Source: Williamsia limnetica (lineage in GTDB: Bacteria > Actinomycetota > Actinomycetes > Mycobacteriales > Mycobacteriaceae). From it: 64,000 nt of DNA. The number at the start of each line of letters is the position of its first letter. Positions within the stretch are counted from its first letter, which is position 1. The stretch is taken from contig NZ_QJSP01000003.1 of NCBI RefSeq assembly GCF_003217475.1, positions 186,001 to 250,000 of the forward strand, read 5' to 3'. The translations under genes were made by a program, and so were the position numbers. Below are positions 14,927-52,308 of the stretch, piece after piece. The notes below the pieces were generated by a model. It saw only the letters and a list, made by a program, of their open reading frames with translations. It was not told the origin of the DNA and made no database searches.

Positions 14927-14941
14927 TGAACACACTCCTAT

Positions 14942-17887: not shown

Positions 17888-17891
17888 GTCG

Positions 17892-19058
17892 CTACGCGAT
17901 CGGGTGATCCGGTGCGATCAACTCCGCGATGTCGGTGGCAAGCGGATATGCGATGTTGCCCTCCTGCGTCCCCTTCACGGTAGGGGTCGCCGCCACCGCG
18001 ACGGTCACGGTGCCGATCTTCGATCGGTGGGCAGGCAGTGTCAGGACCGTCGAGGTGTACCCGTTGAAAAACGGGTTCGCATAGAACCAGTCGTTGTTGA
18101 TGAACACACCCAGACCGTACGAGCGCGCAGTCGTCAGAGTCGCCGAACCGAACGGTAGCCCGGCCAGCCCCTGGTCGGTGAGCTCGCGATAGCCGTTCTC
18201 GCCGAGAAACCGTGAGGATCCCAGCAGCGCATCGAAGCTCGAGGCGGCGTCGTCGATGGTGGTCGTCTGCACGGAACCGTTCGCGATGGTCCACGACGGA
18301 CTCCAGCTGATGGTGTCCTCATAAACGCCGCGATCGGTGCTGAATCCGTGCAGTGCAGGCGCCGGAATGGCCGGTCCCTGATTCGACACCGTGTGGTCGA
18401 GGCCGAGTGGATTCGAGATGTAGGTGCGCAGCAGCTCGGCCAGCGGCGTGCCGGTCGCCTTTTCGAGGACCAGACCCAGGATGACGTAGTTGCTGTGTGA
18501 GTACCCGAACTCTGTTCCGGGTTCGAAGGTGCGTTCCTGCGCGAAGGAGAACGACAGCAGCTCGTCCGGTGTCCAGTTCTTGTGGACATCGGCGAGGTTC
18601 TGCTCGTTGAACGACTCGTCGGTCACGTAGTCGGGGTAACCCGCGGTCATCGACGCCAGTTGGCGTGGGGTCACCTTGTCGGCATACGGCAGGTCGGGAC
18701 GCCACTTCGAGATCGGTTCGTCGAAGCCGACGATCCCTCTCTTTGCCAACTCGACCAAGAGCGCGCCCGTATACGTGATCGCGATGGCTCCGTTGCGGAA
18801 GTGATCTCGGGTGGTTGCGGGCACCCCCGGCGCGGCCTCACCGAACGCGATGTCGGCGATGACCCTGCCATCCACCCGGACCTGCACGATCGCCGAACGC
18901 AGGTTGCCGTCGCCGATCGTGTCGAGAATCAACTCGTCGACCGCGGCCGGCAGGTCGATGTCGGCGGTCGCCGGGGCGACGCCGCTCGTCAGACCGGCCA
19001 CCACCGCAGCCGACACGGCGACCGCAGACATGGTTCTGGCCAGGCGGAACAACTTCAT
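17892..19058 (-). CDS. Secreted serine-hydrolase (beta-lactamase) family protein lacking the catalytic SxxK
   Basis: A 388-residue exported protein with a signal peptide (MKLFRLARTMSAVAVSAAVV, cleavage near ATA-D at 33). The overall fold is class C beta-lactamase/DD-peptidase: TPRQLASMTAGYPDY, FEPGTEFGYSHSNYVILGLVLE and NPLGLDHTV. The nucleophile motif, normally RxGSxxK, reads FRNGAIAITYTG (residues 87-98), so Ser is Ala91 and Lys is Ile94. YSN is YSH, and the third HxG-type motif is FNGYTS. All three active-site elements are therefore altered. It may be a pseudo-enzyme, for example a binding protein for peptidoglycan, or use other chemistry. The frame is intact, arguing for selection rather than decay. 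It is transcribed divergently from the DUF1707 gene. Confidence 0.8.
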   Translation of the reverse strand: MKLFRLARTMSAVAVSAAVVAGLTSGVAPATADIDLPAAVDELILDTIGDGNLRSAIVQVRVDGRVIADIAFGEAAPGVPATTRDHFRNGAIAITYTGALLVELAKRGIVGFDEPISKWRPDLPYADKVTPRQLASMTAGYPDYVTDESFNEQNLADVHKNWTPDELLSFSFAQERTFEPGTEFGYSHSNYVILGLVLEKATGTPLAELLRTYISNPLGLDHTVSNQGPAIPAPALHGFSTDRGVYEDTISWSPSWTIANGSVQTTTIDDAASSFDALLGSSRFLGENGYRELTDQGLAGLPFGSATLTTARSYGLGVFINNDWFYANPFFNGYTSTVLTLPAHRSKIGTVTVAVAATPTVKGTQEGNIAYPLATDIAELIAPDHPIA

Positions 19059-37581: not shown

Positions 37582-39564
37582 TCAGCCTCGGCTCCAGGTG
37601 TGCGCCGCGCCCTGCCTGCGGTACCACTCGAGCAGGTCCGGATCGTCGACGGACCGAGGGTCCACCGCGACATCGGATCGCCCTGCGAGAATCGCGGTCA
37701 CCGGGACCTCGAGCTTCTTCCCGGTCCGCGTGTGGGGGATGCCGGGCGCGACGATCACCTCGTCGGGGACATGTCGCGGGGACAGCCGGGCGCGGATCTC
37801 GGTCCGGATCTCGGTGATCAGCCGCTCGTCGAGGTTCGACCCCGGCGTCAGTGTGACGAACAAGGGCATCCAGTAGGCACCGCCGGGACCATCGACCCCG
37901 AGCACGAAGCCCTCTGAGATCTGTTCGATTCCCTCGACGACCTCGTATATGTCCGCCGATCCCATGCGGATGCCGTTCCGATTCAGCGTCGCATCGCTCC
38001 GTCCATGGATGACGATGGAACCGCGCTCGGTGAGCGTCACCCAATCGCCGTGGCGCCACACGTCCGGCCTCGGACCGGTGGACCACTGATGGTCGAAGTA
38101 GGCCTTTCGATACCGCTCACCGTCGGGGTCGTCCCAGAAGCCCACCGGCATCGACGGCATCGCGGTGGTGATCACCATCTCACCCACCTCTCCCACCAGA
38201 GGCGTGCAGTCAGGACCCCAACTCTCCAACTCCACGCCGAGGTAGCGGACCGACAATTCACCCGGAACGACGTCGATCCCGGGAGACCCACCTGCGAACG
38301 CCGTGACCACGTCGGTGCCCCCGCTGATCGATGACACACCGATCCCGTGTCGCACGTGGTCGTCGACCCAGACGAAGAGGTCTGCCGCCAGGGTCGAACC
38401 CGTGCTACCGATCGTGCGCAGCGCACCGAGATCGTGATCGGCACCCGGGTTCAGATTTGCTTTACGAGACGCCTGCAGTTGTCCGGGGCTCGTTCCGAAA
38501 TAGCTGACCTTCTCCGACTCGACGACCTGCCAGAGCCGGTCGGCATCGGGATAGAGAGGATGGCCGCTGTAACAGATGATCCGGGCGCCGACGAGCAACC
38601 CGGCGATCTGGTAGTTCCACATCATCCAACTCAGCGCGGTCTGCCAGAAGAACACGTCACCGGAGTCCATGTCGCCGTGCAGGCCAACGGCTTTGAGGTG
38701 TTCAACCAGGACTCCTCCGTGGCCGTGCATGATGCCTTTGGGCTTGCCTGTGGTGCCCGAACTGAAGAGCACCCAGAGCGGATGGTCGAAGGGGACCGAT
38801 TCGGTGGTCAGATCTGCCGACCTGCTCACTGCGACATCGAACTCCACCGCAGTGGTGGCCATCTCGTCATCGGGGGGTCGGCCTTGCGCCTCCTGACCGG
38901 CGACCCTCACCACCAACTGCCCCACCAGGGTGGGCAGCAACGCCGCCAACTCGGCACTGTCACTGCGCTTGTCGATCCACTTGCCGCCATATCGGTAACC
39001 GTCGGCCCACACCAGCACCTTCGGCTCGAGTTGCGCGAGACGGCCCGCGGCGCCGGCGGGTGCAAAGTCCTGCCCGCACCCCGAGAACACCGCACCGAGC
39101 GCTGCGGTCGCGAGGAACAAGATCACCGCTTCGGGCACATGTGGAAGATAGGCGACGACCCGGTCACCGCGCCCGACACCGAACTCTCGCAACGTGGCCG
39201 CGACCCCGGCCACCTGCGGTGCGAGTGCTGACCACGCGATCTCGGTGCGACCACCGTCCTCGGTCAACCCGACGATCGCCGCCCCCGGCAGCCGGGTGTG
39301 GTTCATCACCTGATCCACATAGTTGAGCGACACCCCGGGAAACCAGCGAGCACCCGGCATGGTCGGGTCGACAAGGATGTCCTCGTCCGACTCCCCCAGC
39401 ACCGTGCCTCCGGTCGGAGTGAGCGCATACAGATTCCACAGATCACGCCAGAACTGCTCGGGATGGTCGACCGACCACCGCCACAATGCCTCGTAACCCG
39501 TGAGGTCGAGACCACGCTCAGCACTGACGCGGGCGGCGAAATCTTCGATTGCGCTTGTCGTCAC
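37582..39564 (-). CDS. Acetoacetate-CoA ligase (acetoacetyl-CoA synthetase)
   Basis: A 660-residue AMP-forming ligase. Its N-terminus (LTGYEALWRWSVDHPEQFWRDLW, then MPGARWFPGVSLNYVDQV) is characteristic of acetoacetyl-CoA synthetases. The P-loop is LWVLFSSGTTGKPKGIMHGHGG near residue 268, followed by WQTALSWMMWNYQIAGLLVG, GSTGSTL and GRSDATLNRNGIRMGSADIYE. It activates acetoacetate, the end product of leucine breakdown by the pathway encoded at 50.7-58.5 kb, so the two may be metabolically linked though far apart. It ends 22 bases from the convergent YjbR gene. Confidence 0.92.
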   Translation of the reverse strand: MTTSAIEDFAARVSAERGLDLTGYEALWRWSVDHPEQFWRDLWNLYALTPTGGTVLGESDEDILVDPTMPGARWFPGVSLNYVDQVMNHTRLPGAAIVGLTEDGGRTEIAWSALAPQVAGVAATLREFGVGRGDRVVAYLPHVPEAVILFLATAALGAVFSGCGQDFAPAGAAGRLAQLEPKVLVWADGYRYGGKWIDKRSDSAELAALLPTLVGQLVVRVAGQEAQGRPPDDEMATTAVEFDVAVSRSADLTTESVPFDHPLWVLFSSGTTGKPKGIMHGHGGVLVEHLKAVGLHGDMDSGDVFFWQTALSWMMWNYQIAGLLVGARIICYSGHPLYPDADRLWQVVESEKVSYFGTSPGQLQASRKANLNPGADHDLGALRTIGSTGSTLAADLFVWVDDHVRHGIGVSSISGGTDVVTAFAGGSPGIDVVPGELSVRYLGVELESWGPDCTPLVGEVGEMVITTAMPSMPVGFWDDPDGERYRKAYFDHQWSTGPRPDVWRHGDWVTLTERGSIVIHGRSDATLNRNGIRMGSADIYEVVEGIEQISEGFVLGVDGPGGAYWMPLFVTLTPGSNLDERLITEIRTEIRARLSPRHVPDEVIVAPGIPHTRTGKKLEVPVTAILAGRSDVAVDPRSVDDPDLLEWYRRQGAAHTWSRG

Positions 39565-39659
39565 GGCTCAAGTATTGCCCACCGAGCGAGCACGTATCCG
39601 GTGTTTGTCGACCTGCGTCACCAGGGTGGAGTCCGGTCGGGACTGCCCTCAGGTCGAAC

Positions 39660-40469
39660 TCAGACCAGTCCCTGCGCCTTGGCCACATCCCAGTAGGAAT
39701 GCAATCCACGAACGTGCTGGCCACCGTCCACCGGGATGAAGTGCCCGGTGACACGTTGGGCGGCGTCGGATAGCAGGAACAGGGCCACGTCGGCGATGTC
39801 GGAGGCTTCCTGGTGCCGCACCTCCGGTCCGACCAGGACGCGGTCCAAGAATTCCTGGCCCATCTGACCGACCGTGAAACCCTCACCGAGCGGCGTCCTC
39901 GTCGTCCCGGGGCCGATGGCGTTCGCCCGGATCCCGTACCGACCGAACTCGCCGGCGCAGACCTGGGTGAACTGGTTGATCCCAGCTTTCGCCGCGCAGT
40001 AATGACCGAGGCCGTCGGTGGCCGCCACCGCGTTGAGTGACGAGATGTTGACGATCGCCCCGGGCAAGTCCTTGGCGATCAACCTCTGCGCGAAAGCCCT
40101 GCTGCACAGGAACGTGCCCTTGAGACACGTGTTAACGATCTTGTCCCACTGCTCGACCGACGTGTCGACGATCAACGAGAGTGCGGCAGTCCCTGCGTCG
40201 TTCACCAACATCTGGACAGCACCGAACTTGTTCTCGGCAGCCGCGAAAGCCTGGTCGACGTCTTTCTCGAGCTCCACGGTCCCTACGGTCCACGACAGTC
40301 GATCGGCCCCGTACTTCGCCTCCAGGTCCCGCCTGGTCAGGTCACCGGTCTCCGCATCGATGTCGAGGACGGCGACCCGGATGTCGCGTTCGAGCAGCTG
40401 GGTGACGATTTCTTTGCCGATACCGCTCGCACCACCAGTGACGAGTGCTGTTTCTCCGTTGAATTGCAT
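39660..40469 (-). CDS. SDR family oxidoreductase, catabolic island
   Basis: A 269-residue short-chain dehydrogenase. Cofactor loop TGGASGIG (residues 12-19), VNDAGTAALS, catalytic Ser in NISSLNAV, Tyr-Lys in YCAAKAG, and the substrate-loop region GPGTTRTPLGEGF. The Asp at the end of strand 2 (VLDIDAETG) suggests NAD preference. It is the last gene of the minus-strand arm of the catabolic island, 84 bases from the CoA ligase gene. It probably oxidises an alcohol made by the P450 in the divergent arm or a ring-opened hydroxyacid. Confidence 0.88.
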   Translation of the reverse strand: MQFNGETALVTGGASGIGKEIVTQLLERDIRVAVLDIDAETGDLTRRDLEAKYGADRLSWTVGTVELEKDVDQAFAAAENKFGAVQMLVNDAGTAALSLIVDTSVEQWDKIVNTCLKGTFLCSRAFAQRLIAKDLPGAIVNISSLNAVAATDGLGHYCAAKAGINQFTQVCAGEFGRYGIRANAIGPGTTRTPLGEGFTVGQMGQEFLDRVLVGPEVRHQEASDIADVALFLLSDAAQRVTGHFIPVDGGQHVRGLHSYWDVAKAQGLV

Positions 40470-40553
40470 GCACGTACCTCAGTTCGGTTGAGAGACTGGC
40501 TGTTCGGACATTGTCTGTAGGACACCAGCGCACGCGTCGTCGATCGCGCCGGC

Positions 40554-41963
40554 TCAGCGAGTGGCGCGCCGATCGACCACACGCCTGGCCTTGAATACGG
40601 TCCGGTCGAGGGTCCCGGGCTCTACCAGGGTGATCGGTATCCGGATTCCGTTGACCTTCTTCATCGTCTTCTCGCCTTCGGCGACCAGCTCGGCCAACGC
40701 GGCGCCTTTACCCGAAGAGTCCCGCGCGTTCCCGGCGAGCCACACCGGATCGTACTCGGCACGAACCTCGATCTCGTCGAGCGCGCCTTCGGTGCGCACG
40801 TGGATCTCGAACTCGACGTCGAAGCCCTCGACACTGCGCAGACACGTCTCGATCGCACTGGGGAAGATGTTGGCGCCGCGGATCAGCAACATGTCGTCGA
40901 GTCGGCCGAGTACCCCTTCGGGCATTCTCGGGTACGTTCTGCCGCAGGAACACACCGAGTTGTCCAGGAAACTCTCGTCTCCCGGGGCGAACCGGATCAT
41001 GGGTTGCGATTCACGCCACAGATGCGTGTAGACGATCGCGCCCCTCGTACCTTCTCGCAGAGGGGAATTGTGATCGGTCGGAGCGACGATCTCCGGGTAG
41101 ACCTCGTCCGAGATGATGTGGGTGCCGGTTCCGGATTGGCAACCGACATTCGTCTGGAACGGATACATCTCGGAAGTCGAGCCGGCATCGATGGCTCGCG
41201 CACCCCAGCCTTCCTCGAGGAGTCGCTTGGTTCCGGGCAGGCTCCCGCCGGGCTCGCCGCCGATCAGCAGGGTCTTGACCGAGCTCTCCCGGAGCGAGAT
41301 CCCCATCTTGGACGCCACTGAGATCAGATGCAGGCAGTAGGACGGAGTCGCACTGAACACGGTCGGCTGCAACCGACGGATGAATTCGAGATGCTTCTCC
41401 GAGTCGGTCACCCCGAGCGGGAACAGGGCTGCACCGATCGCCTCGACTCCCTGCACCACGCCCCAGCCGCCGAAGAACAGTCCGAACGGGAATCCGACCT
41501 GCACCAGATCGTCGGGACGCACTCCCGCACACCATTGCGCCATCGCGTGAACCTCGGCGGCCCGGTCCCAGTCCGCCTGGGACACCGCATACATCGTCGG
41601 GGTACCGGAGGTTCCGGACGAACCGTGGATACGCGCGATGCCCTCATACCCGTCGAACTTGGTGTAGCTACCGAAGATCGGGTGGGCCGCCTGGTCCGCC
41701 ACCAGCATCTTCTTGTTGATGGCGGGCACCTTCGTCGCGAAGTCCTCGAGACTTCCGACCATGTCCGGCGTGAACCCGTGTCGATCGTAATGTTCACGAT
41801 AGAAGGGCAATTCGTCGTACACATAGTGGAGCTGGTGCACGATGCGCTCCAAGATCACCTTGGCGCGGACGTCACTGCTCATCGTCTCGCGTTCCTCATC
41901 CCAGTACTTCGGGAATCCACGAGAGTCGGTCGACGAACTACGTGCTTCGGGGGATCTGGCCAT
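40554..41963 (-). CDS. AMP-forming CoA ligase, phenylacetate-CoA ligase-like
   Basis: A 469-residue ligase of the PaaK-like type. Visible features are the N-terminal FPKYWDEERETM and PFYREHYDRHGFTPDMVGSL, the AMP loop IHGSSGTSGTPTMYAV near residue 105, LIGGEPGGSLPGTKRLLEE, the acid-binding GSTSEMYPF region, a C-SC-GRTYPRM segment and GRLDDMLLIRGANIFP. PaaK relatives activate aryl acids, but similar proteins act on alicyclic and terpene-derived acids. The ATG at 41963 has AAGGA some 12 bases upstream. In this island it should make the CoA ester after ring cleavage. Confidence 0.85.
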   Translation of the reverse strand: MARSPEARSSSTDSRGFPKYWDEERETMSSDVRAKVILERIVHQLHYVYDELPFYREHYDRHGFTPDMVGSLEDFATKVPAINKKMLVADQAAHPIFGSYTKFDGYEGIARIHGSSGTSGTPTMYAVSQADWDRAAEVHAMAQWCAGVRPDDLVQVGFPFGLFFGGWGVVQGVEAIGAALFPLGVTDSEKHLEFIRRLQPTVFSATPSYCLHLISVASKMGISLRESSVKTLLIGGEPGGSLPGTKRLLEEGWGARAIDAGSTSEMYPFQTNVGCQSGTGTHIISDEVYPEIVAPTDHNSPLREGTRGAIVYTHLWRESQPMIRFAPGDESFLDNSVCSCGRTYPRMPEGVLGRLDDMLLIRGANIFPSAIETCLRSVEGFDVEFEIHVRTEGALDEIEVRAEYDPVWLAGNARDSSGKGAALAELVAEGEKTMKKVNGIRIPITLVEPGTLDRTVFKARRVVDRRATR

Positions 41964-42039
41964 CGAACTGGTCCATCCTTTACGAATGCTGGTGGAGGGG
42001 CTGATCAAGGCGTCGCCGGGTGCGACGCCTCGCCGCCGG

Positions 42040-42801
42040 TCAGCCGGCACTTCCCTTTGCGTTCCAGCCTCCGTCGACGGGCAGGATCTCGCCGGTACAG
42101 AACTCTGAGTCGTCGGAGAAGAAGAAGGCTGCTGCATTGGCGATGTCTTCTGGGCGGCCCAACCGGTGGATGATGTGAGCGTTCATGAAGTTCTCCCGCA
42201 TGCTCTCCGTCGTGTTCGCCAGGATCGGGGTGTTTATCGTGCCCGGGCAGATGCAATTGCACCGGATGCCGCGTGGCCCGTACTCGAGTGCGACCTGCTT
42301 GGTGAGACTGACGACGCCGCCCTTGGCGGCGGAGTACGCGGCCAGGTTTTCCAGACCCTTCAGAGCAGCCATGGACGCGATGTTGACGATGCTCCCCGAA
42401 CCCTTGGAGAGCATGTGCGGAATCACCGCCTGCATGCCCAGCCAGACACCGCGCAGGTCGGTCCCGACGACCAGATCCCATCCGTCATCATCGAGATCTA
42501 CGACGGTGTCCGGTCCGAGCGTGTTGGTCACTCCTGCAATGTTTCCCAGAAAGTCCACACCGCCGAACTCCTTGAGGGCCGTCGCCACCAGATCATCCCA
42601 GCTGTCGCGTTGACGAACGTCCATCACCACGTGAACAGCCTTGCCGCCGTTGGCAACGATCTGCTTGGCAGTCCTGTCGTCGGCCTGCAGGTCACCGATG
42701 ACCACCGCAGCCCCCTCGGACGCCGCGCGCAGCGCGGTCGCCTGCCCGATCCCCTGAACGCCACCAGAAATCACTGCGACCTTGTCAGCCAATCGATTCA
42801 T
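42040..42801 (-). CDS. SDR family oxidoreductase, first gene of the minus arm
   Basis: A 253-residue SDR with cofactor loop SGGVQGIGQATALRAA, an NIAGVTNTLG segment in place of NNAG, catalytic Ser in NIASMAAL, Tyr-Lys in YSAAKGG and the C-terminal PVDGGWNAKGSAG. Asp at GDLQADD indicates NAD use. The ATG at 42801 was chosen for AAGGA 12 bases upstream and family length. It leads the minus arm (SDR, CoA ligase, SDR). Role: probably alcohol-to-ketone oxidation before the luciferase-like monooxygenase step. Confidence 0.88.
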   Translation of the reverse strand: MNRLADKVAVISGGVQGIGQATALRAASEGAAVVIGDLQADDRTAKQIVANGGKAVHVVMDVRQRDSWDDLVATALKEFGGVDFLGNIAGVTNTLGPDTVVDLDDDGWDLVVGTDLRGVWLGMQAVIPHMLSKGSGSIVNIASMAALKGLENLAAYSAAKGGVVSLTKQVALEYGPRGIRCNCICPGTINTPILANTTESMRENFMNAHIIHRLGRPEDIANAAAFFFSDDSEFCTGEILPVDGGWNAKGSAG

Positions 42802-43094
42802 CTCGCTACATCCTTTTCGTAGTGCCGCACTGGCGGTGAAAACCTCGCATTCGAGGATCGGACGTGTCGGCCGGTCATCGGGTTCGGCGGACTGGGAGTG
42901 ATTGCACGCTGCCGGCAATCGTCCACGAGTGAGAACAGTGGCAGTCCACTTGCAACCGAAGGCAACCGTTCGTTTGCCTACACAAGACAAGTGTGTCCTA
43001 GGCCACTTTCACTGTCAAGCAGAATTTCAAACACCAGGTGGATTGCCGGGCCGGATTCATCGGCGATCCGGGCCGTGTCCGCCCCCGGGAACGG
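42802..43094. other. Promoter region of the minus arm of the catabolic island
   Basis: About 290 bases without a gene, between the SDR start and the TetR stop. It contains an ACCGTnnGTTTG site at 42965-42976 and a GACA-AGTG-TGTC inverted repeat at 42985-42996, both candidate regulator sites. Confidence 0.55.
42965..42976. promoter_or_regulatory. Candidate island operator ACCGTnnGTTTG, site 3
   Basis: ACCGTTCGTTTG lies upstream of the first minus-arm SDR. The same 12-base pattern recurs at 43822 and 45491 upstream of plus-arm genes. The link to the local TetR regulator is an inference. Confidence 0.45.
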
Positions 43095-43676
43095 TCAACC
43101 ACTCTTGCGCGCGAGGGAGCCAGAGAGAAATATGTCGGCCATCTGGCTGGCCTGCGCGCGGGCAACAGAACGATCCCCCGGGACGTACCACCGAGTCATC
43201 CAGTTGAGGGAACCCACCAGCATCCGCGCTGCGAGGTGGCTATCGATGGAGCTGTCGAATATCTGCATGCGTCGACCCTCGTCGATGATCTCGGTCAAGA
43301 GCGACAGGTACTCTCGGTCCATCGCCGCCCATTCCGGCGATATCCCTTTCCCGACGATCTCCTGCAGATATACCTGAACATACGGCAGGTTGTCCTCGAT
43401 GATGTCCGCGTGGATCAACGCCACCCGGCGGACCTTTTCCGAGGGTGGCAGGTCCGACCCCGCAATCCTGCGGACCTCGGTGAGCAGATGATCCGCAGGT
43501 GATCTCACCACTGCGAACAGCAGGTCTTCCTTGTTGGTGATGTAGTTGTACAAACTGCCCTTGAACATGCCGACCTCGGCAGCGATGTCCTCCAGAGAGG
43601 CGGCGCTATAACCCTTCTGGCTGAACACCTTGGCAGCAGCCTGCACCACGTCAGGCCAGCGGCTCGGTCGCGGCAC
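43095..43676 (-). CDS. TetR family regulator of the catabolic island
   Basis: A 193-residue TetR/AcrR-type regulator. The N-terminal helix-turn-helix is VVQAAAKVFSQKGYSAASLEDIAAEVGMFKGSLYNYITNKEDLL; the rest is a helical ligand domain (VALIHADIIEDNLPYVQVYLQEIVG). It sits between the two divergent catabolic arms and is transcribed away from the ferredoxin operon, the usual place for a local repressor. The effector may be a pathway intermediate, often a CoA ester in this family. A TACCGT...GGTA palindrome lies in the 200-base gap to the ferredoxin gene. Confidence 0.85.
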   Translation of the reverse strand: MPRPSRWPDVVQAAAKVFSQKGYSAASLEDIAAEVGMFKGSLYNYITNKEDLLFAVVRSPADHLLTEVRRIAGSDLPPSEKVRRVALIHADIIEDNLPYVQVYLQEIVGKGISPEWAAMDREYLSLLTEIIDEGRRMQIFDSSIDSHLAARMLVGSLNWMTRWYVPGDRSVARAQASQMADIFLSGSLARKSG

Positions 43677-43821
43677 ATCTTCTCCAATTGATCGATGGTT
43701 CAGTACTCCACATCATAGAACGCCCGCCCGGCTGCACTCGAACAATGCAGCCGGATCCACCGATGCCTTGGACCACGTCGCCGAGTGGTTCGCACTGGCC
43801 ACCAGCTGGACTGTTTAAACT

Positions 43822-43833
43822 ACCGTACGTTTG
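43822..43833. promoter_or_regulatory. Candidate island operator ACCGTnnGTTTG, site 1
   Basis: ACCGTACGTTTG lies within the imperfect palindrome TACCGTACGTTTGGTA, 59 bases before the ferredoxin start, in the gap shared with the TetR gene. Confidence 0.5.
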
Positions 43834-43880
43834 GTAACGTCTTGTTTCAGACGGTTCACCCGGAATCAAAGGAGGTCGAC

Positions 43881-44204
43881 ATGCCGATTGTCACGTACGT
43901 GGACGATGCTGGCGAAGCGCAAGAGATCGACGGCCAGGACGGAGACTCGGTCATGGAGACCGCGGTGACGAATGGCGTCTCGGGAATCGTCGGACAATGC
44001 GGTGGATCACTCGCCTGCGCCACCTGCCATGTCTACATTCATCAATCATGGAGAACCAGAACGGGCTCCGCCTCTGAACTCGAAGAAGAGATGCTGGAAG
44101 GGGCCCTCGCCGAGCACCGTCCGGAGAGCAGACTGTCCTGCCAGATCGTGCTCGACGACAGCCTGGACGGACTGACCGTGACCGTGGCACCGGACCAGTT
44201 GTGA
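43881..44204 (+). CDS. [2Fe-2S] ferredoxin, putidaredoxin/adrenodoxin type
   Basis: A 107-residue ferredoxin with cysteines at positions 40, 46, 49 and 87 (C-x5-C-x2-C-x37-C), the adrenodoxin/putidaredoxin spacing that serves class I bacterial P450s. Sequence marks are GQCGGSLACATCHVYI and RLSCQIVLDDSLDGL; length matches putidaredoxin (106). The ATG has AAAGGAGG 5-6 bases upstream. It is the first gene of the plus arm, overlaps the reductase gene by four bases, and should carry electrons from that reductase to the P450 at 48.9 kb. Confidence 0.95.
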   Translation: MPIVTYVDDAGEAQEIDGQDGDSVMETAVTNGVSGIVGQCGGSLACATCHVYIHQSWRTRTGSASELEEEMLEGALAEHRPESRLSCQIVLDDSLDGLTVTVAPDQL

Positions 44205-45421
44205 CCGGAGGAGTGGCCATCGTTGGCTCATCTCACGCCGGCGTGAACCTGGCCGCATCGCTCCGCGCGCTCGGCTACGCGAGCGAGATCACCATCTTCG
44301 GCGAAGAGTCCTCGGCTCCCTATCAGCGGCCACCGCTGTCCAAGAAACTGATGACCACGCCCACAGGGCCACTGCCGGTGCCGCTCCGGTCGCCGGCGTT
44401 CTTCGAGTCCCGCGCGATCAACGTCGTTCTCGGCACCCGAGTCCTCTCGGTGGATCGCGCGACGGGACTCTTGGAGACATCGCAACAGGCTCAGGTCCCG
44501 TTCGATCGGGTTGCACTCGCCACCGGCGCCCGCGCCCGCAAGTTGGACGTACCCGGTGGCGAGCTGACCGGTGTGCACTACCTCCGAACCTTGGAAGACG
44601 CAGGTCAGCTGCGTCAGCATGCGTGCGACGCATCCTCGGCAGTCATCATCGGGGGCGGTTTCGTCGGACTGGAGGTCGCATCGTCGCTGTCGGCGGCCGG
44701 AAAGTCTGTCACGGTTCTCGAGTCGAGCACCCAGCTCATGGGCAGATCCCTCACAGCGACCACGGCCGGCTTCTTCGAAAAGGTCCACCGCAGCGCAGGG
44801 GTGGACCTGCACCTGTGCGCACGAGTGGATGCGCTGGTCGGACAGGACGGTGATGTCATGGGCGTTCGGCTGGCAGACGGCACCGAGATTCCCGCAGACC
44901 TTGTCGTGGCAGGCATCGGCGCCGTTCCGCGGACCGACCTGGCCCAGCAGATGGGACTCGAACTCGCCGACGGGATCGTGGTGGATGAGTACGCCCGGGC
45001 CAGCGATCCCAGGGTCGTCGCCATCGGCGACGCCGCGGTCTTTCCCCATCCGCTCCGTACCGGCGGGCGGACCCGTCTGGAGTCGGTACAGAACGCCGAT
45101 GAGCAGGCGACCATCGCTGCCAACACCCTGCTCGGAAACCTCGTTCCCTACACCTCGGCGCCCTGGTTCTGGTCCGATCAATTCGGTTTCAAGTTGCAGA
45201 TGGTGGGCGCACCGAAGGTCGTCGACCTAGAGGTCGTCCGAGGCTCGCCCGACGGCGACGACCTGTCCGTGCTGCTCTACTCATCCGGCCGAATCGTCGG
45301 CGGCGAGTTCGTGAATTGTCCGGCAGATTTCGTCGCGGTACGTAAGGCCATCGGTGCCGGCACACATCTCCCACCCGAGATGGCCTGCGATCCCGGCGTC
45401 CCGCTGAAATCGCTCCTGTAA
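44201..45421 (+). CDS. Ferredoxin reductase, putidaredoxin-reductase type
   Basis: A 406-residue FAD/NAD(P)H-dependent reductase. FAD-binding GSSHAGVNLAASLRALG at residues 9-25 replaces the usual GxGxxG with GSSHAG; the pyridine-nucleotide loop is IIGGGFVGLEVASSL near 148. PYQRPPLSKK, VALATGARARKLDVPG and DEYARASDPRVVAIGDAA are characteristic. The start is GTG, overlapping the ferredoxin stop (GTGA). It completes a class I P450 electron chain with the ferredoxin. The flavin reductase next door probably serves a different enzyme. Confidence 0.94.
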   Translation: MTGGVAIVGSSHAGVNLAASLRALGYASEITIFGEESSAPYQRPPLSKKLMTTPTGPLPVPLRSPAFFESRAINVVLGTRVLSVDRATGLLETSQQAQVPFDRVALATGARARKLDVPGGELTGVHYLRTLEDAGQLRQHACDASSAVIIGGGFVGLEVASSLSAAGKSVTVLESSTQLMGRSLTATTAGFFEKVHRSAGVDLHLCARVDALVGQDGDVMGVRLADGTEIPADLVVAGIGAVPRTDLAQQMGLELADGIVVDEYARASDPRVVAIGDAAVFPHPLRTGGRTRLESVQNADEQATIAANTLLGNLVPYTSAPWFWSDQFGFKLQMVGAPKVVDLEVVRGSPDGDDLSVLLYSSGRIVGGEFVNCPADFVAVRKAIGAGTHLPPEMACDPGVPLKSLL

Positions 45422-45490
45422 TTGCCGACCTGCAGGTCTTCGATTGACCCGAGAAATTTCCTGTGATGGGCGCCACATCCGTGATAACCT

Positions 45491-45502
45491 ACCGTTGGTT
45501 TG
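45491..45502. promoter_or_regulatory. Candidate island operator ACCGTnnGTTTG, site 2
   Basis: ACCGTTGGTTTG lies 64 bases before the flavin-reductase start, almost the same distance as site 1 from the ferredoxin start. The 133-base gap here suggests a second promoter inside the plus arm. Confidence 0.5.
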
Positions 45503-45554
45503 CATACGAAGTCCGCACCCGCCAGAGGTGCCCGCAACGAAGTCGAGGTGGAGC

Positions 45555-46055
45555 ATGGAGGAAGTTACCGGCAGGTCTTTCGACCTCGGCGAACTGCGAA
45601 ACATCTTCGGCAGCTTTCCGAGCGGCGTCACTGCCCTGTGCGCAATGGTGGACGACGTACCGGTAGGAATGGCTGCGAGCTCGTTCGCTTCCGTCTCGAT
45701 GGACCCACCCCTGGTTTCGATCTGCGTGCAGAACGAATCCAGAACGTGGAAGCGGTTGCAGAACAGTACTTCTCTCGGAATCAGCGTGTTCGCAGAGGCA
45801 CAACGCGAAGAATGCCTCAGGATGTCCCTGAAAGAGGGGGACCGTTTCGCGCGCGTCGAATGGGAGCAGTCCGGACGGGGTGCCGTCCACCTCAAGAACG
45901 CAGCGGCCACCTTGACCTGTCGGCTTCATTCGGTTGTTCCGGCCGGTGACCACGGCATAGCCCTGCTTCGAGTCGATGACGCTTCGTGCGACCACGACGT
46001 CGATCCCCTCATCTTCCATCGCAGCATGTTTCGAGCCCTTCAGCTACTGAGTTGA
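45555..46055 (+). CDS. Flavin reductase (HpaC/RutF-like) partner
   Basis: A 166-residue flavin reductase-like protein: LRNIFGSFPSGVTALCAMVDD near residue 12, GMAASSFASVSMDPPLVSICVQNESRTW, which forms the flavin site, and LGISVFAEAQREECLRMS. Such proteins reduce FMN with NAD(P)H and hand it to two-component monooxygenases. The next gene encodes a luciferase-like monooxygenase that needs such a supply, so the pair is likely functional. The ATG at 45555 has GAGGTGGAG upstream. It has a possible promoter of its own with an ACCGTnnGTTTG site. Confidence 0.9.
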   Translation: MEEVTGRSFDLGELRNIFGSFPSGVTALCAMVDDVPVGMAASSFASVSMDPPLVSICVQNESRTWKRLQNSTSLGISVFAEAQREECLRMSLKEGDRFARVEWEQSGRGAVHLKNAAATLTCRLHSVVPAGDHGIALLRVDDASCDHDVDPLIFHRSMFRALQLLS

Positions 46056-46165
46056 TCCTGTACAGCGCGGTTCTGGCGAGTCTGAACAGCATCAGAAGAT
46101 GCCTTCCCAACTGTTCCACCACAGCATTTTCGTTCAAATGAGTTTCCGATCAAGGAGGATTGACG

Positions 46166-47275
46166 ATGAAATTTGGAATCTTCACGATGCCCGAGCATCC
46201 GCCACGGGAGAACTGGACTCTGTCCTACGACCGTGACATCGATGATGTCGTGCTCGCCGAGAAGCTGGGTTTCGACGAGTACTGGATCGGCGAGCACCAC
46301 ACCGGCGGCTACGAAAACGTGCCGGTGCCCGAATACATGCTGGCCAAAGCGTCGGCGGTGACGCATCGGATCAAACTCGCGACCGGAGTGGTCAATCTCC
46401 CCTTCCAAGACCCGTTCCAAGTCGCCGAGCGTCTCGCTTTCCTCGACCACCTGACCCACGGTCGGTTGATCTACGGATTTGGCGGCGGCGGTCTCCCGTC
46501 GGACAAAGCCCTGTTCGAGATGCCGGTCGAAGAAGGAACCCCTCGCACGAACGAGGCGCTCGAGATCATCGAAAAGCTCCTCGTCTCGGAAAGCCCCGTC
46601 GATCACGACGGCATCTTCTGGCAATACAAGAATCGTCAGCTACAGGTCGGGCCCCATCAGATGGTGCCGCCCTTCGCCGTCGCAGGCCTCACCGGCACAC
46701 ACAACTTTCGCAAGTGCGGTGAACGCGGCTGGATTCCGGTCAGCGTCTACTTCGCGCCGCTCGACTCCGCAGACAACCCACACGGTCCCGACCTAGTCGA
46801 CCACGCGAATGCCATTGTCGCGGGCGCGAAGGATTCCGGCCTCGATCCCGATCTCGCCCGCGAACAATGGCGAATCTCGCGCGAGGTCTATGTTTCCGCG
46901 AACAAGAACCAGGCGATGAACGAGATTCGTGAAGGTGTCAACAGGTCGTACGATTACCTTCTCGGGTTGGGCCTGGGAGCGTTGATGAAACGTGACATCG
47001 AGATGGCCGATGCTGATCTCACCTTCGACTGGATGGTCGAGAACATTCCATGGGTGATCGGCAGCCCCGAGGATTGCACTCGCCAGATCAACGAGATCAA
47101 CGAAGCCGTGGGCGGCTTCGGTCACTTCCTCATCAATTCACGCGACTGGGTCGGCACCGACTACTGGAACAGATCGCTCGAATCGTTCGCGCGCTACGTG
47201 ATGCCACAGTTCCAACCGAACCAGCGACTCGCACGACGCGAGGCCTTGGCGGCGAAAGCCCTGGGCAAGAGCTGA
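46166..47275 (+). CDS. Luciferase-like (LLM) flavin-dependent monooxygenase
   Basis: A 369-residue TIM-barrel monooxygenase of the bacterial luciferase superfamily: MKFGIFTMPEHPP, GFDEYWIGEHHTGGYENVPVPE, IKLATGVVNLPFQDPFQVAE and LIYGFGGGGLPSDKALF. Members include type II Baeyer-Villiger enzymes (diketocamphane monooxygenases) and alkane or F420-linked oxidases. Here a flavin reductase directly precedes it, favouring FMNH2 use. AAGGAGG lies 7 bases before the ATG. In the island's scheme it would insert oxygen into a ketone formed by P450 plus SDR. The Baeyer-Villiger role is inference; the fold assignment is firm. Confidence 0.9.
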   Translation: MKFGIFTMPEHPPRENWTLSYDRDIDDVVLAEKLGFDEYWIGEHHTGGYENVPVPEYMLAKASAVTHRIKLATGVVNLPFQDPFQVAERLAFLDHLTHGRLIYGFGGGGLPSDKALFEMPVEEGTPRTNEALEIIEKLLVSESPVDHDGIFWQYKNRQLQVGPHQMVPPFAVAGLTGTHNFRKCGERGWIPVSVYFAPLDSADNPHGPDLVDHANAIVAGAKDSGLDPDLAREQWRISREVYVSANKNQAMNEIREGVNRSYDYLLGLGLGALMKRDIEMADADLTFDWMVENIPWVIGSPEDCTRQINEINEAVGGFGHFLINSRDWVGTDYWNRSLESFARYVMPQFQPNQRLARREALAAKALGKS

Positions 47276-47290
47276 CGACGACCGCTGATT

Positions 47291-47325
47291 GCCCGCTCGC
47301 CGGCCGGTCCGGCGGGCGAGTGGGC
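47291..47325 (+). terminator. GC-rich hairpin inside the plus arm
   Basis: GCCCGCTCGCC at 47291-47301 pairs with 47315-47325 (one G-T), with further pairing inside. It lies 17 bases after the monooxygenase stop and has no T-run; it may attenuate transcription or protect the upstream mRNA. Confidence 0.5.
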
Positions 47326-47408
47326 ATGTCCCCGGCGCCCCGTCAGCCGGGTGTGGGCGAGATACTGCCTGGCCCGAGAACATCGACTTGTCGAAATGAG
47401 GTAGGCAG

Positions 47409-47753
47409 ATGAAGGATCCGAGGCCTGTGGTCACCGACCTGCGCGTGCACGGAGTGGTCTGTGAGACATGCGGATTGGCGATGGCGACCGCACGCCCGAG
47501 GTGCGCCGAGTGCCGAAGTTCAGTAACCGCTGCAGAATTCGGCCCCGAGGGCTCTGTCTTCGCATCGACCATCGTGAGAATTGCAGTGGCAGACCGTGAA
47601 CCGCCCTATGCGCTCGCATACGTGAACCTCGACAACGGGCCACGGGTCCTCGCACACGTCGTTGGCCCACTCGACCTGCCGCCGCAAGTCGGTGGCAGGG
47701 TTCGCCTCCTACCCCAGGTCGACGGCGATCTCCGCGTCGAGGTGACTCGATGA
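47409..47753 (+). CDS. DUF35 zinc-ribbon/OB-fold protein, thiolase partner
   Basis: A 114-residue protein of the Zn-ribbon plus OB-fold (DUF35/DUF35_N) family. The ribbon is CETCG ... CAEC at residues 18-37, followed by an OB-like domain (GSVFASTIVRIAV, YALAYVNLDNGPRVLAHVVG). Proteins of this type bind SCP2-type thiolases, as the ChsH2 DUF35 domain binds the Ltp2 aldolase in steroid side-chain breakdown. The gene overlaps the thiolase gene by four bases (ATGA), which supports a complex. Confidence 0.9.
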   Translation: MKDPRPVVTDLRVHGVVCETCGLAMATARPRCAECRSSVTAAEFGPEGSVFASTIVRIAVADREPPYALAYVNLDNGPRVLAHVVGPLDLPPQVGGRVRLLPQVDGDLRVEVTR

Positions 47754-48895
47754 CTGCCTGGATCACTGCGGCCGGCACCTCCCAGTTCGGAAAACAGCGG
47801 GACAAGTCGATCAGCGAACTGGCCTGGACGGCCATTGGTGAGGCATTCGATGATCTGGATGCCACGGCGCCACCACGCATCGACGCCGTCTACGTCGGCA
47901 ACGTCTTCGGGGAACCAGGTATCGCGGTCCGCGCGGTGCAGGGCTTCGGGATAACTGAAGTACCGGTCTTTTGTTTCGAGAATGCTTGCGCAAGTGGCTC
48001 GGTCGCACTCCACGAAGCCAGGATCGCCATCGAAACCGGCAGGTTCGAGCAAGTTCTCGTGCTCGGGATCGAGGCCATGACCGGGCTCTTCACAGGGCCC
48101 ATCTCTCCTCAGCAAAGCGACGCGGAAGGACGCAGTGGGCTGGCGATGCCCGCGCTCTACGCAATGTCCGCGAGCAGGTGGCTCGCCGAGGATCGGGTGA
48201 CGGTGGATCAACTCGCGGCGGTGTCGGTGAAGAACCACGCACACGCGCTGTTCAACCCGCGAGCCCAGTACAGCGGCAGTTACGACATCGCCCAGGTGCT
48301 GGCGTCCCCGATGATCAGCGATCCGCTCACCCTCTTGCAGTGCAGTCCGTTGTCGGACGGGGCGGCGGCCGTAGTCGTCAGCGCACACTCGACAGGCGCT
48401 CAATCGGTGAAGATCAGCGCAACCGAACATCGATCCGGCAAGGCCTGGGACCACCGCAGCGACGCGGTCTGGGGCTACGACATCGTTCGCGCGACCGCCA
48501 CTGCGGCGTATGACGCAGCCGCTATTTCGCCAACGGACGTCGACTTCGCCGAAATACACGACGCCTTCACCATCGGTGAATTGGTGACCACCGAGGCTCT
48601 GCGCCTGGCGCCCGAGGGCGCTGCCGGACGGTACGCCCTGGGCGGCACCACCGCGCTCGGTGGATCTCTCCCGATCAACCCGTCGGGCGGACTGCTGTCG
48701 CGGGGTCACCCGCTCGGGGCCACCGGGGTCGCACAGGCCGTCGAGGCGGTGTGGCAGCTCCGTGGAGACGCCGGAGGCCGTCAGGTCGACGGGGCGCGCC
48801 GAGCCCTCACCGAGACGATGGGCGGCGGAGTCAGCGGCAGTGACGGCAACTCCTGCGTCGTATCCATATTTGAGCGAAATGAGGACGCAGCATGA
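47750..48895 (+). CDS. SCP2-type thiolase / retro-aldolase-like protein
   Basis: A 381-residue thiolase-fold protein: nucleophile Cys in FENACASGSVALHEA (near residue 82), IHDAFTIGE (near 266) and SRGHPLGATGVAQAVEA (near 318). The last thiolase motif (CxG near the C-terminus) reads GNSCVVSIF, as in lipid-transfer-type thiolases. With a DUF35 partner it may be a true thiolase or, like Ltp2, a retro-aldolase on a beta-hydroxy CoA ester. It would shorten the CoA ester made by the ligase of the minus arm. It overlaps the P450 gene by four bases. Confidence 0.9.
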   Translation: MTAWITAAGTSQFGKQRDKSISELAWTAIGEAFDDLDATAPPRIDAVYVGNVFGEPGIAVRAVQGFGITEVPVFCFENACASGSVALHEARIAIETGRFEQVLVLGIEAMTGLFTGPISPQQSDAEGRSGLAMPALYAMSASRWLAEDRVTVDQLAAVSVKNHAHALFNPRAQYSGSYDIAQVLASPMISDPLTLLQCSPLSDGAAAVVVSAHSTGAQSVKISATEHRSGKAWDHRSDAVWGYDIVRATATAAYDAAAISPTDVDFAEIHDAFTIGELVTTEALRLAPEGAAGRYALGGTTALGGSLPINPSGGLLSRGHPLGATGVAQAVEAVWQLRGDAGGRQVDGARRALTETMGGGVSGSDGNSCVVSIFERNEDAA

Positions 48896-50130
48896 GGTCG
48901 GGCGCCGACGATATACTGGGACCCACAGCGGTCGCAGACCCCTACTCGTACTTCGCCGAGTTGCGCGCCACTGATCCCGTGCACTGGATCGCTTCCTATC
49001 GGTCGTGGTTCGTCGTTCGGCACGACGACGTCTCCGAGGCTCTCAAGAGTGAGGATTTCTCGTCGGATCGTATCGCCCCGGTCATCGAGCGTCTGCGATC
49101 GAAAGACAGACCGGACATCTCCCTCATCGAGACTCTCGAATTGCTCAACGGGTGGCTGGTCTTCCGGAATCCGCCTGAACACACGAGATTTCGGCGACTT
49201 GTACACAAGGCGTTCTCGCCGCGCATGATCGCCGCCATGCGCGAAGAAGTCGTCTCCGTCGCAGGTGAGCTGATGGACCTCGCGGTCGCACGGAGTTCAC
49301 CCGACCGGCCGACCGACCTCATCCACGAGATCGCTTACCCATTGCCCGCCATCGTCATTGCCGGAATGCTGGGTGTACCACCTGAGGACAGGGACCTTTT
49401 CAAGGACTGGTCCGACGACATCTCGGCGCTGGTCTTCGGTGCACTCGACGACGAGGGAAGGCATGAGCGGGCCCGGCATGGAATGAGCGAACTGGTCCGC
49501 TACATCGGCGAACTTCTCGATCGCGTCCGCCTCCAACCCGGCGATGACCTCGCGACTGCACTCGTCGAGTCACGCGACGGTGAGGACGGGCTGACGAACG
49601 AAGAACTCATCGCCATCTGCGTCAACCTACTGTTCGGCGGACACGAGACCACTACGAATCTCATCGCGAACAGCATGCTCGGCCTACTGAAGAATCCGGA
49701 GCAGAAGGAACTCCTTCGCACCGATCCTGCGATCATCGGGGCGGCCATCGAAGAGTTCCTGCGCTATGACGGGCCTGCAAAATCCGTCGTCCGCGTCGTC
49801 GCAGCCGACACCGAACTGGGAGGGAAGTCGATGAAGCGCGGGGATCGGGTATTCCTCATGCTGGCGGGGGCCAATCACGACCCCGAAGTCTTCGATCGAC
49901 CCGACGAGCTCGATCTACGGCGTAAACCCAACAAACACATCGGCTTCGGTGCCGGCGTCCACTACTGTCTGGGCGCATCTCTGGCACGACTGGAGGCGAG
50001 CGTCGTGATTCCTCTTATGCTGGAGCGTTTTCCCGAATGCGAGCTCGGTTCCGAACAACTAGAGTGGGATCCCGTCCTGCTGACCCGAGGCATGAAGCAC
50101 CTGCCGGTGTTCTTGCACGCCGATCGATGA
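48892..50130 (+). CDS. Cytochrome P450
   Basis: A 412-residue soluble bacterial P450. The I-helix oxygen motif is LLFGGHETTTNL near residue 245; the K-helix ExxR position is in EEFLRYDGP, and the heme-binding loop is HIGFGAGVHYCLGASLARLEA with the Cys ligand near 359. FRNPPEHTRFRRLVHKAFSPR is the C-helix region. The P450 family cannot be named from motifs alone. Ferredoxin and reductase at the start of the same operon make a complete class I system. It probably performs the first hydroxylation of the island's substrate. Confidence 0.96.
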   Translation: MRSGADDILGPTAVADPYSYFAELRATDPVHWIASYRSWFVVRHDDVSEALKSEDFSSDRIAPVIERLRSKDRPDISLIETLELLNGWLVFRNPPEHTRFRRLVHKAFSPRMIAAMREEVVSVAGELMDLAVARSSPDRPTDLIHEIAYPLPAIVIAGMLGVPPEDRDLFKDWSDDISALVFGALDDEGRHERARHGMSELVRYIGELLDRVRLQPGDDLATALVESRDGEDGLTNEELIAICVNLLFGGHETTTNLIANSMLGLLKNPEQKELLRTDPAIIGAAIEEFLRYDGPAKSVVRVVAADTELGGKSMKRGDRVFLMLAGANHDPEVFDRPDELDLRRKPNKHIGFGAGVHYCLGASLARLEASVVIPLMLERFPECELGSEQLEWDPVLLTRGMKHLPVFLHADR

Positions 50131-50618
50131 CCGCGCACCTCTCGCTCGCAACCCGCAGTCCCCTGCGACTGTTCATACCGACCCGGTGTGGTGCGGCGCC
50201 CGTCGACCCCTCGGACGCCCGACAGTGGAGGGAGTTCACAGACCCGTCTGGTGACGTCACGTTCATCCGTTCCGACTATCTCGCGGGTGCCCATCGGCTG
50301 ACCCAGAATCTGCGCAGTCGCAGTTCATCACCTACCTCCCAGCCCACCGCGGTAGTACTTCAGATCGAAGTGGTGATCGATCGCGACCCGGCGACCGCTC
50401 GCCTAGCACTCGGGGGCGAGCCTCGCCGCGTCGACCATGGGCGGCCTACCTTCCAATTCGTGGGATCGCCTGCCGGGCTTACCGGATTGGTGGCAGACAT
50501 CTACATTGCCGAGGTGGCCGACGGTGTCGCCTTCGTCCCGCTGCTCCGGGCTCAGCACGCGCAAGACATCTGCGGGGATGTCGCAGCCCGGCTGCGCCGA
50601 AGAGGGATGATGTCCTGA
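50127..50618 (+). CDS. Unrecognised protein with weak LLM-like C-terminus, last gene of the plus arm
   Basis: A 163-residue protein that overlaps the P450 stop by four bases (ATGA), so it is translated with the operon. No family is recognised with confidence. The segment VVLQIEVVIDRDPATARLAL near residue 75 and the end GLVADIYIAEVADGVAFVPLLRAQHAQDICGDVAARLRRRGMMS resemble the last strands and helix of LLM-class flavin monooxygenases (ADGF-x-L-x-P ... ELQRRG), but at 163 residues it is less than half a barrel. No Cys, signal peptide or membrane helix is seen. It may be a remnant, or an accessory subunit of the 46.2-kb monooxygenase. Confidence 0.7.
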   Translation: MTAHLSLATRSPLRLFIPTRCGAAPVDPSDARQWREFTDPSGDVTFIRSDYLAGAHRLTQNLRSRSSSPTSQPTAVVLQIEVVIDRDPATARLALGGEPRRVDHGRPTFQFVGSPAGLTGLVADIYIAEVADGVAFVPLLRAQHAQDICGDVAARLRRRGMMS

Positions 50619-50660
50619 ACCGCGGCGCATCCGACGCGACCCCGAAACGAGCGAGGACCT

Positions 50661-50688
50661 TCCCGGGCCGGGCCGGGCCGGCCCGGGA
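50661..50688. terminator. Two-way terminator between the island and fadD35
   Basis: TCCCGGGCCGG and CCGGCCCGGGA form a perfect 11-base stem with a 6-base loop, between the convergent stops at 50618 and 50689. Confidence 0.75.
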
Positions 50689-52308
50689 TCACCCCCCGAG
50701 TAAGCCGACGGCCTGCTCTCGCATCTGCACTTTCCGGACCTTGCCGGTGACCGTCATCGGGAACTCGTCCACGATGTGCACGTACTTCGGAATCTTGTGC
50801 CGCGCCACCTTGCCGGCCGCGAACTCTCGCAGGTCTTGCGCCGTGAACTCTCCGGCGCCGTCGCGCAGCCGGACCCAGGCCATCAGTTCTTCGCCGTACT
50901 TCTCGTCCGGGACGCCGATCACCTGGGCATCGAGGATGTCGGGATGGGTATAGAGAAACTCCTCGATCTCGCGGGGGTAGATGTTCTCCCCACCCCGGAT
51001 GACCATGTCTTTGATCCGGCCCGTGATCTGCACGTACCCATCGGCATCCATCACGGCGAGATCACCGGTGTGCATCCACCCGTCAGAGTCCAACGCCTCC
51101 GCCGTCTTGTCCGGCTGATTCCAATAACCGACCATCACGCTGTAGCCACGTGTACAGAACTCGCCTGTCTCACCGCGTGGGGCGGTTTCGCCTGTCACCG
51201 GATCGACCACCTTGATCTCCAGGTGCGGACCCACCCGACCCACAGTGCCCACCCGGCGCTCGAAGGTGTCGTCGGCGCGGGTCTGTGTGGACACCGGCGA
51301 GGTCTCGGTCATGCCGTAGCAGATCGACACCTCGGACATGTGCATCTTGTTGATGACCTGTCGCATGACCTCCGCCGGACACGGCGAGCCCGCCATGATG
51401 CCGGTGCGCAGACTGCTCAGGTCGTACTCGTCGAAATCGGCGAGCGCCAGTTCGGCGATGAACATCGTCGGCACGCCGTAGAGACTTGTACACCGTTCGC
51501 CCTCAACCGCTTTGAGAGACAGCGCCGGATCGAAGCCGGGTGCCGGGATCACCATCGCCGCACCGTGGGTGGTGGCCGCGAGATTGCCCATCACCATGCC
51601 GAAGCAGTGATAGAACGGCACCGGGATACAGATCCGGTCGGCGTCGGTGTAATTGCAGAGTTCGCCGACGAGATAACCGTTGTTCAGGATGTTTCGATGA
51701 GACAGGGTGGCACCCTTGGGATTTCCCGTCGTACCGGACGTGTACTGGATGTTGATCGGATCATCCGGTGACAGTGCCGCTGCCGCGGCGTCGAGTGCCG
51801 AGAGTTCTGATTCGTCCGGTGTCGAGATGAGTTCGGCCCATTCCGGCGAACCGAGGAGTACCGCCGTCTCGAAGTCCGGACATTTCTCGAGCGCGGTGGC
51901 GAGCATCGCGGCGTAATCGGCATCGCGGAATTGCGGTGCAGCGATCACGATGCGGGCGCCGGATTGGTTCAGCGCGAACTCGATCTCGGTCTGTCGGTAC
52001 GCCGGGTTCAGGTTGACCAGGACCAGTCCGAGTTCTGCGGTGGCGTACTGGGTCAACACCCATTCTGCGCAGTTCGGAGCCCACAGACCCACGCGATCGC
52101 CCCGCGTGAGCCCACTGCGTGCGAGCCCGGCAGCCAGCGCGCGGACGTGCTCGCGGAACTCACGGTACGTCCAGCGCCGCCCCGTCGGGACGTCCACGAG
52201 GGCGTCGTTGCCGGAGAAGTTCTCTGCGGTCTGCCGCAGCGATTCTCCGATGGTGACGGTCAGCAGTGGCGGGTTCGACTCGCCCTGGGTGTACGACAAC
52301 TCGCTCAT
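50689..52308 (-). CDS. fadD35: Acyl-CoA synthetase, FadD35-like
   Basis: A 539-residue AMP-forming ligase: [22 protein letters not shown] near residue 187, [83 protein letters not shown], and the catalytic Lys in [13 protein letters not shown]. tuberculosis FadD35 (Rv2505c) belongs to the same leucine-type cluster. The ATG at 52308 follows GGAGCG; the longer open frame overlaps citE and is ignored. Likely substrates are short or branched acids such as isovalerate. It is the distal gene of the operon, 20 bases after citE. Confidence 0.9.

Follow-up and report, generated by a model that had tools for sequence, protein, structure and literature searches.

A 64,000-nucleotide stretch of the Williamsia limnetica genome (hereafter the window; contig 3, NZ_QJSP01000003.1, positions 186001-250000, within a 6.35-Mb genome) holds an island of twelve open reading frames (ORFs) at 39660-50618, in which a cytochrome P450 with its own ferredoxin and reductase, a luciferase-like monooxygenase (LLM) with a flavin reductase, two short-chain dehydrogenases (SDRs), a CoA ligase and a DUF35-thiolase pair are grouped around one TetR-family regulator. 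The block lies between two genes that adjoin each other in related genomes, its core gene set recurs as a module at ten other loci, and putative operators stand upstream of each of its three transcription units. The reading to which we give about an even chance is that of a horizontally spread, substrate-inducible pathway, which would hydroxylate an alicyclic or branched compound, oxidise it and open it through a type II Baeyer-Villiger reaction, and then proceed by CoA activation and thiolysis. Each part is of a known kind, and what appears to be new, judged from the literature searched, is the combination of genes and their packaging under a single regulator.

Translation together with Pfam and NCBIfam scans confirmed the twelve ORFs and the domains that a first-pass annotation of the stretch had named, among them its class I P450 system (by Pfam and cysteine spacing), its FMN reductase/LLM pair and its DUF35-thiolase pair (by Pfam and adjacency). 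The Pfam matches of the named domains exceed the curated cut-offs, with the sole exception of the AMP-binding match of the ligase (27.9 bits, under the cut-off of 29.9), the AMP-binding_C_2 match of which is over its own (64.1 bits, cut-off 25). No transposase or integrase match was found by Pfam on any of the twelve, which are as follows.

39660-40469, minus strand: SDR1, short-chain dehydrogenase (PF13561, 3.6e-50)
40554-41963, minus strand: CoA ligase of the 2-hydroxyisobutyryl-CoA synthetase (HCL) type, PaaK superfamily
42040-42801, minus strand: SDR2, closest solved relative cyclohexanol dehydrogenase 4ure (6e-50)
43095-43676, minus strand: TetR-family regulator (PF00440, PF17932)
43881-44204, plus strand: 2Fe-2S ferredoxin (PF00111, 5.9e-9)
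44201-45421, plus strand: ferredoxin reductase, FAD/NAD type (PF07992, 2.2e-61; PF14759, 3.1e-24)
45555-46055, plus strand: flavin reductase (PF01613, 2.2e-34)
46166-47275, plus strand: LLM, putative type II Baeyer-Villiger component (PF00296, 3.8e-39)
47409-47753, plus strand: DUF35/OB-fold partner (PF01796, 3.8e-13), with a CxxC...CxxC zinc-finger-like motif by eye
47750-48895, plus strand: SCP2-type thiolase with ENACASG and HDAF motifs (PF22691, 4.1e-39)
48892-50130, plus strand: cytochrome P450 (PF00067, 6e-32), with ExxR, GGHETTT and heme-Cys motifs by eye
50127-50618, plus strand: small ORF of an LLM-C-terminal-like family, overlapping the P450 stop in ATGA (weak TIGR03860 match, 0.0019)

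A search with the LLM at E <= 1e-80 gave matches, own genome counted, in 6 of 401 family, 4 of 397 order and 4 of 394 class genomes; five further LLM loci were taken from named genome contigs, giving 16 non-self loci altogether. Ligase, thiolase, DUF35, P450 and TetR genes are co-located with the LLM, within the 20-21 kb fetched, in ten of the 16 (L001, L012, L014-L016, L020-L022, L037 and L038). The loci L002, L003, L004, L013 and L039, whose LLM identity is 65% or less, are without the cassette, and L005 is too short for its presence to be judged. The cassette is found in at least four actinobacterial family-level groups (f1, f14, f16 and f41), and the DUF35 and thiolase genes are adjacent in the window and in all ten other island loci. 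Because the core set recurs at these ten loci, the co-occurrence of the genes is, judged from gene content, not a matter of chance. A 2Fe-2S ferredoxin plus reductase is encoded at two of the ten (L037 and L038), the reductase of four others carries a 2Fe-2S domain at its C terminus (L012 and L014-L016; Pfam was applied to that of L012 only), and a small ferredoxin-like protein was seen by eye in L020, L037 and L038, while no homologue of ferredoxin, reductase or 2Fe-2S-fused reductase was found in L001, L021 or L022. Five loci have a flavin reductase homologue (L012, L014, L016, L037 and L038). No relative was found in the viral contigs searched, and among nine records of distant plasmid LLMs the three stretches read, from Natrinema, Streptomyces and Rhodococcus sp. 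DMU1, have no P450 annotated.

Further genes accompany the cassette in some relatives. A second P450 copy, 67% identical to that of the window, adjoins a SnoaL-like gene within the cluster of L037 (11713-13433). Near the flavin reductase, several loci encode a conserved protein some 100 residues long (L016:15097-15408, L037:11280-11618, L038:8391-8696 and, in a locus without the cassette, L039:5707-6000), and the three copies scanned (L016, L037 and L038) have no Pfam match. In L021, a carotenoid-oxygenase-family gene and a gene resembling type I Baeyer-Villiger monooxygenases (BVMOs) lie near the cassette (13897-15270 and 17019-18893) with a transposase between them, a possible pointer to an apocarotenoid substrate that was seen at no other locus. 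By eye, a branched-chain-amino-acid-type ABC transporter set follows the cassette in L038 (15183-19901), where L037 has an oligopeptide-type set instead.

The boundaries of the inserted block were defined by the adjacency of the flanking genes in relatives and by the junction letters.

37582-39564, minus strand: acetoacetyl-CoA-synthetase-type flanking gene
39565-50688: whole insertion
50689-52308, minus strand: fadD-type flanking gene

In seven of eight same-genus genomes the two flanking genes neighbour each other, with matches touching or 11 bases apart, where the window has a gap of 11.1 kb; in the exception (G001) the acetoacetyl-CoA synthetase match is just 43% and lies on a different contig. 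The stop codon of one flanking gene and the start codon of its neighbour share the letters GTGA in the three closest relatives, and GTGA is present at both ends of the island in the window; a 4-bp target duplication may account for this, or simply preservation of the stop and start. By this comparison the block is a clean insertion, whose boundaries match empty sites seen independently, and the other eight genus members have no LLM match at E <= 1e-60. Within the island the G+C content falls to 0.608 in two bins (42-44 kb and 46-48 kb) and lies at 0.62-0.64 in the others, compared with 0.65-0.68 for 32-40 kb; on the far side (50-54 kb) it is only 0.635-0.637, therefore composition alone is insufficient to mark the island. 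Another region of lower G+C relative to most of the window (0.605-0.616) lies at 2001-6000.

The regulator has FadR as its best NCBIfam model (75.5 bits, below the cut-off of 200), and is 63% and 59% identical to its relatives in L037 and L038, respectively. A 20-bp palindromic position weight matrix (PWM) was trained on 14 intergenic stretches from relatives only, with the window excluded, and in 11 of these 14 a site scoring at least 14 was present. The three best distinct PWM sites of the 64-kb window are located upstream of the three transcription units of the island.

42960-42979: putative TetR operator before SDR2-ligase-SDR1 (PWM 14.4; consensus match)
43817-43836: putative TetR operator between tetR and the ferredoxin gene (PWM 18.9, top in the window; consensus match)
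45482-45505: putative TetR operator before flavin reductase-LLM-DUF35-thiolase-P450 (PWM 15.3/15.0 in overlapping registers at 45482/45486; consensus match)

A consensus made from these sites has exact genome copies at the three positions only and eight copies with one mismatch, versus 20 matches for a reversed control pattern; since it was derived from the window sites themselves, the independent test lies in the PWM and in the absence of further copies. The island thus looks like one regulon with the TetR protein probably binding at all three sites, which agrees, at the level of sequence, with the shared induction of the two arms that the reading of the first-pass annotation required.

In the proposed route, the TetR protein would act as a repressor occupying the three operators until the substrate or a CoA intermediate releases it. 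The P450, served by its own ferredoxin and reductase, would introduce a hydroxyl group into a compound that is alicyclic or heavily branched, an SDR would convert the resulting alcohol into a ketone, and the LLM, probably supplied with reduced flavin by the flavin reductase encoded directly upstream, would put oxygen beside the carbonyl to give a lactone or ester. Opening of this product would leave a hydroxy acid, from which the HCL-type ligase would form the CoA ester; the second SDR would yield a 3-oxoacyl-CoA, and the complex of thiolase and DUF35 protein would split it. What the sequence establishes is the set of genes, the insertion, the recurrence of the module and the positions of the putative operators; the individual reactions, the sequence in which they occur and the type of substrate are deduced from homology. 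The Pfam scan of the twelve ORFs found no acyl-CoA dehydrogenase or enoyl-CoA hydratase in the island, from which we infer that the two oxygenations create the beta-keto group; such a scheme would suit substrates with branching that blocks ordinary beta-oxidation, and the substrate may, as the first-pass annotation suggested, be a cyclic terpenoid. A G+C-rich hairpin with one mismatch (47296-47320), possibly an attenuator or processing site, was also noticed between the LLM and DUF35 genes.

The camphor pathway on the CAM plasmid of Pseudomonas putida, with which the first-pass annotation had drawn a parallel, likewise combines a class I P450 with 2Fe-2S ferredoxin and reductase, an LLM-type two-component oxygenase with a flavin reductase, and a TetR-type regulator, CamR. 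The cysteine spacing of the island ferredoxin, counted by eye from the translation, is C-X5-C-X2-C-X37-C as in putidaredoxin, which together with the Pfam matches places the island ferredoxin, reductase and P450 in the putidaredoxin-type class I. Among solved structures the LLM comes closest to a type II Baeyer-Villiger enzyme of camphor breakdown, 3,6-diketocamphane 1,6-monooxygenase (4uwm, 2.8e-24), in a distant match that extends over residues 3-349; of the 19 further PDB matches almost none is as long (8cbb, an alkanal monooxygenase, spans 2-316). The proposed Baeyer-Villiger role is favoured by the best PDB match and weakened by its distance. The parallel does not extend to the second BVMO, which in the camphor pathway is the type I enzyme OTEMO: no FMO-like Pfam match exists for any of the twelve island ORFs, and the type I BVMO-like gene of L021 is the one seen near a cassette, such genes not having been sought systematically in the other loci. 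In addition, the island has SDRs in place of the camphor alcohol dehydrogenase, its ligase is of the HCL type and is joined by DUF35 and thiolase genes, and the host class differs; the analogy is one of function and not of membership in the camphor pathway. PMC5192521 describes camphor catabolism as relying on a P450 chain encoded on a plasmid and on LLM oxygenases of the two-component type, which several flavin reductases serve. A narrower proposal, which we advance only tentatively, would make the island an actinobacterial counterpart of that pathway and a route so far undescribed. The P450 and a type II Baeyer-Villiger step would turn a terpenoid-like alicycle with a quaternary carbon into a branched acid that is 2- or 3-oxygenated and therefore open to cleavage by the HCL-type ligase and a BbsB-type thiolase, with neither an acyl-CoA dehydrogenase nor a hydratase needed, and the cassette would move between genera with its single regulator.

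The thiolase has its closest solved relatives in 6hsj/6hrv and BbsB (7pxp), and the best PDB match of its partner is the DUF35 chain 6esq_E (6e-6). As in the benzoylsuccinyl-CoA thiolase BbsAB, genes for a DUF35 protein and an SCP2-type thiolase with the HDAF motif are adjacent, whereas the operon partners are different. A rearranged relative of the island was found at 854-880 kb of plasmid pRB98 of Rhodococcus oxybenzonivorans (L040:11753-25286), where homologues of the P450 (52%) and the ligase (51%) are adjacent and are accompanied by a flavin reductase, a PDR/VanB reductase, an LLM, a fused DUF35-thiolase and an SMP-30/gluconolactonase-family gene; its LLM (33% over 117 residues) and thiolase part (31%), however, are only distant relatives. 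This SMP-30/gluconolactonase-family gene, or the PF04199 gene that adjoins the ligase gene in L022, possibly encodes the opener of the lactone or ester.

The ligase, described as PaaK-like by the first-pass annotation, does belong to the PaaK superfamily but is nearer to HCL (352 bits with 6hdw vs 202 bits with PaaK 2y4o), which points to a 2-hydroxyisobutyrate-type and not a phenylacetate-type enzyme. It is 50% identical to the thiamine pyrophosphate (TPP)-enzyme-linked ligase of Pseudonocardia and 41% to two ligases in the B12-mutase operons of Methylibium and Xanthobacter. These likenesses favour a pathway for branched, tert-alkyl or ether-type compounds, which we nevertheless find unlikely: the P450 would cleave or hydroxylate a tert-alkyl compound toward a tertiary 2-hydroxy acid, the ligase would essentially be HCL, and the LLM and thiolase would process the remaining chain. 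In the 2-hydroxyisobutyrate pathway HCL works with a TPP lyase or a B12 mutase, the genes of which neighbour the reference ligases; yet tblastn (E <= 1e-3) with the TPP-enzyme and mutase proteins gave no match either in the window or at the ten island loci, while the same queries recovered the reference ligase loci as a positive control, and the island is therefore not the 2-hydroxyisobutyrate pathway. The P450, LLM and thiolase set it further apart, and a term search of the 2-hydroxyisobutyrate paper PMC7176365 did not find the words 'Luciferase', 'P450' and 'thiolase'. An EthD-family gene near DUF35 would also fit tert-alkyl degradation, although it was noticed in just two of the ten loci (L020 and L037).

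The LLM superfamily is functionally broad and, among the NCBIfam models shown for the island LLM, none reaches its cut-off, so the enzyme could instead be an epoxidase, a desulfurase or a C-N ring-cleaving oxygenase acting on an alkene, thioether or N-heterocycle; the long match to the diketocamphane enzyme and the co-encoded SDRs and P450 argue for the Baeyer-Villiger function, and we regard the other chemistries as improbable, to about the same degree as the tert-alkyl pathway. Two further readings rank low. A thiolase-like protein paired with a DUF35 protein is shared with Ltp2-ChsH2 and Sal, and would act as an aldolase in side-chain removal from a polycyclic, steroid-like compound. Excerpts of PMC12329534 give the aldolase motifs as YDHF in Ltp2 and YDCY in Sal, while the island thiolase carries the BbsB-type HDAF without the aldolase Tyr, HDAF and ENACASG are invariant in nine aligned thiolases (the window and eight loci, with L037 and L038 outside the alignment), and the twelve ORFs include no MaoC-type hydratase; steroid side-chain removal is thus very improbable. 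We think it just as remote that the cluster performs biosynthetic tailoring and not catabolism: the P450 has 598 PDB matches, and names of biosynthetic enzymes are frequent in the best 60 of these, but the twelve ORFs have no synthase or carrier-protein domain, a CoA ligase is present with a thiolase, and P450 relatives on Rhodococcus plasmids adjoin acyl-CoA dehydrogenase, thiolase and CoA-ligase genes.

Several observations weigh against an inducible, horizontally spread Baeyer-Villiger pathway. The island has no lactone hydrolase gene, the similarity of the LLM to the camphor enzyme is distant while other LLMs catalyse different reactions, and an AlphaFold model of the LLM from a five-row alignment reached a mean pLDDT of only 35. 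The assignments of both SDRs are weak: orthologues of SDR1 (about 65%) are limited to four of the ten loci (L001, L012, L016 and L021), and its matches are scattered across 684 PDB sequences; SDR2 has a close orthologue in one locus (L021, 75%). Correlated divergence, in contrast, favours the reading: across the window and ten loci, the pairwise distances for the LLM correlate with those for the ligase, P450, thiolase and TetR, and these with one another (r 0.61-0.94), although the calculation had no housekeeping control. In a partly resolved ligase tree the island ligases do not form a single clade separate from HCL, and that of L020 pairs with the TPP-enzyme-linked ligase of Pseudonocardia; the branch to the outgroup is very long and numerous forks are open, and only this starred pairing was used. 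For the operators, three of the 14 training stretches have no site of at least 14, 11 of 100 dinucleotide shuffles gave at least one match of 14 or above (a maximum of two per shuffle, and none of the 100 gave four), and one of 20 mononucleotide-shuffled windows reached 18.0 as its best single match.

The gene set, which the first-pass annotation had not recognised, matches no characterised pathway in the literature searched; subscription journals were mostly outside that search, so absence from print does not follow. A table entry for Rhodococcus opacus 1CP in an excerpt of PMC13101518 reads 'Cytochrome P450 and LLM F420-oxidoreductase' and was not compared with the island. If the substrate were identified, a natural means of degrading alicyclic or branched compounds could come to light, and with it potentially a new type II Baeyer-Villiger enzyme together with its native reductase, as well as an HCL-type ligase for a different acid. 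The cassette is compact and apparently self-regulated, and its enzyme list is short and testable.

The small ORF at the end of the island has no Pfam match; its family consists of free-standing proteins with a weak likeness to the C-terminal region of NtaA/DmoA-type LLMs. Homologues are present in 58 of 121 family genomes, own included, and in three homologue loci that were read (L046, L047 and L050) a cysteine-desulfurase-like frame was seen nearby by eye.

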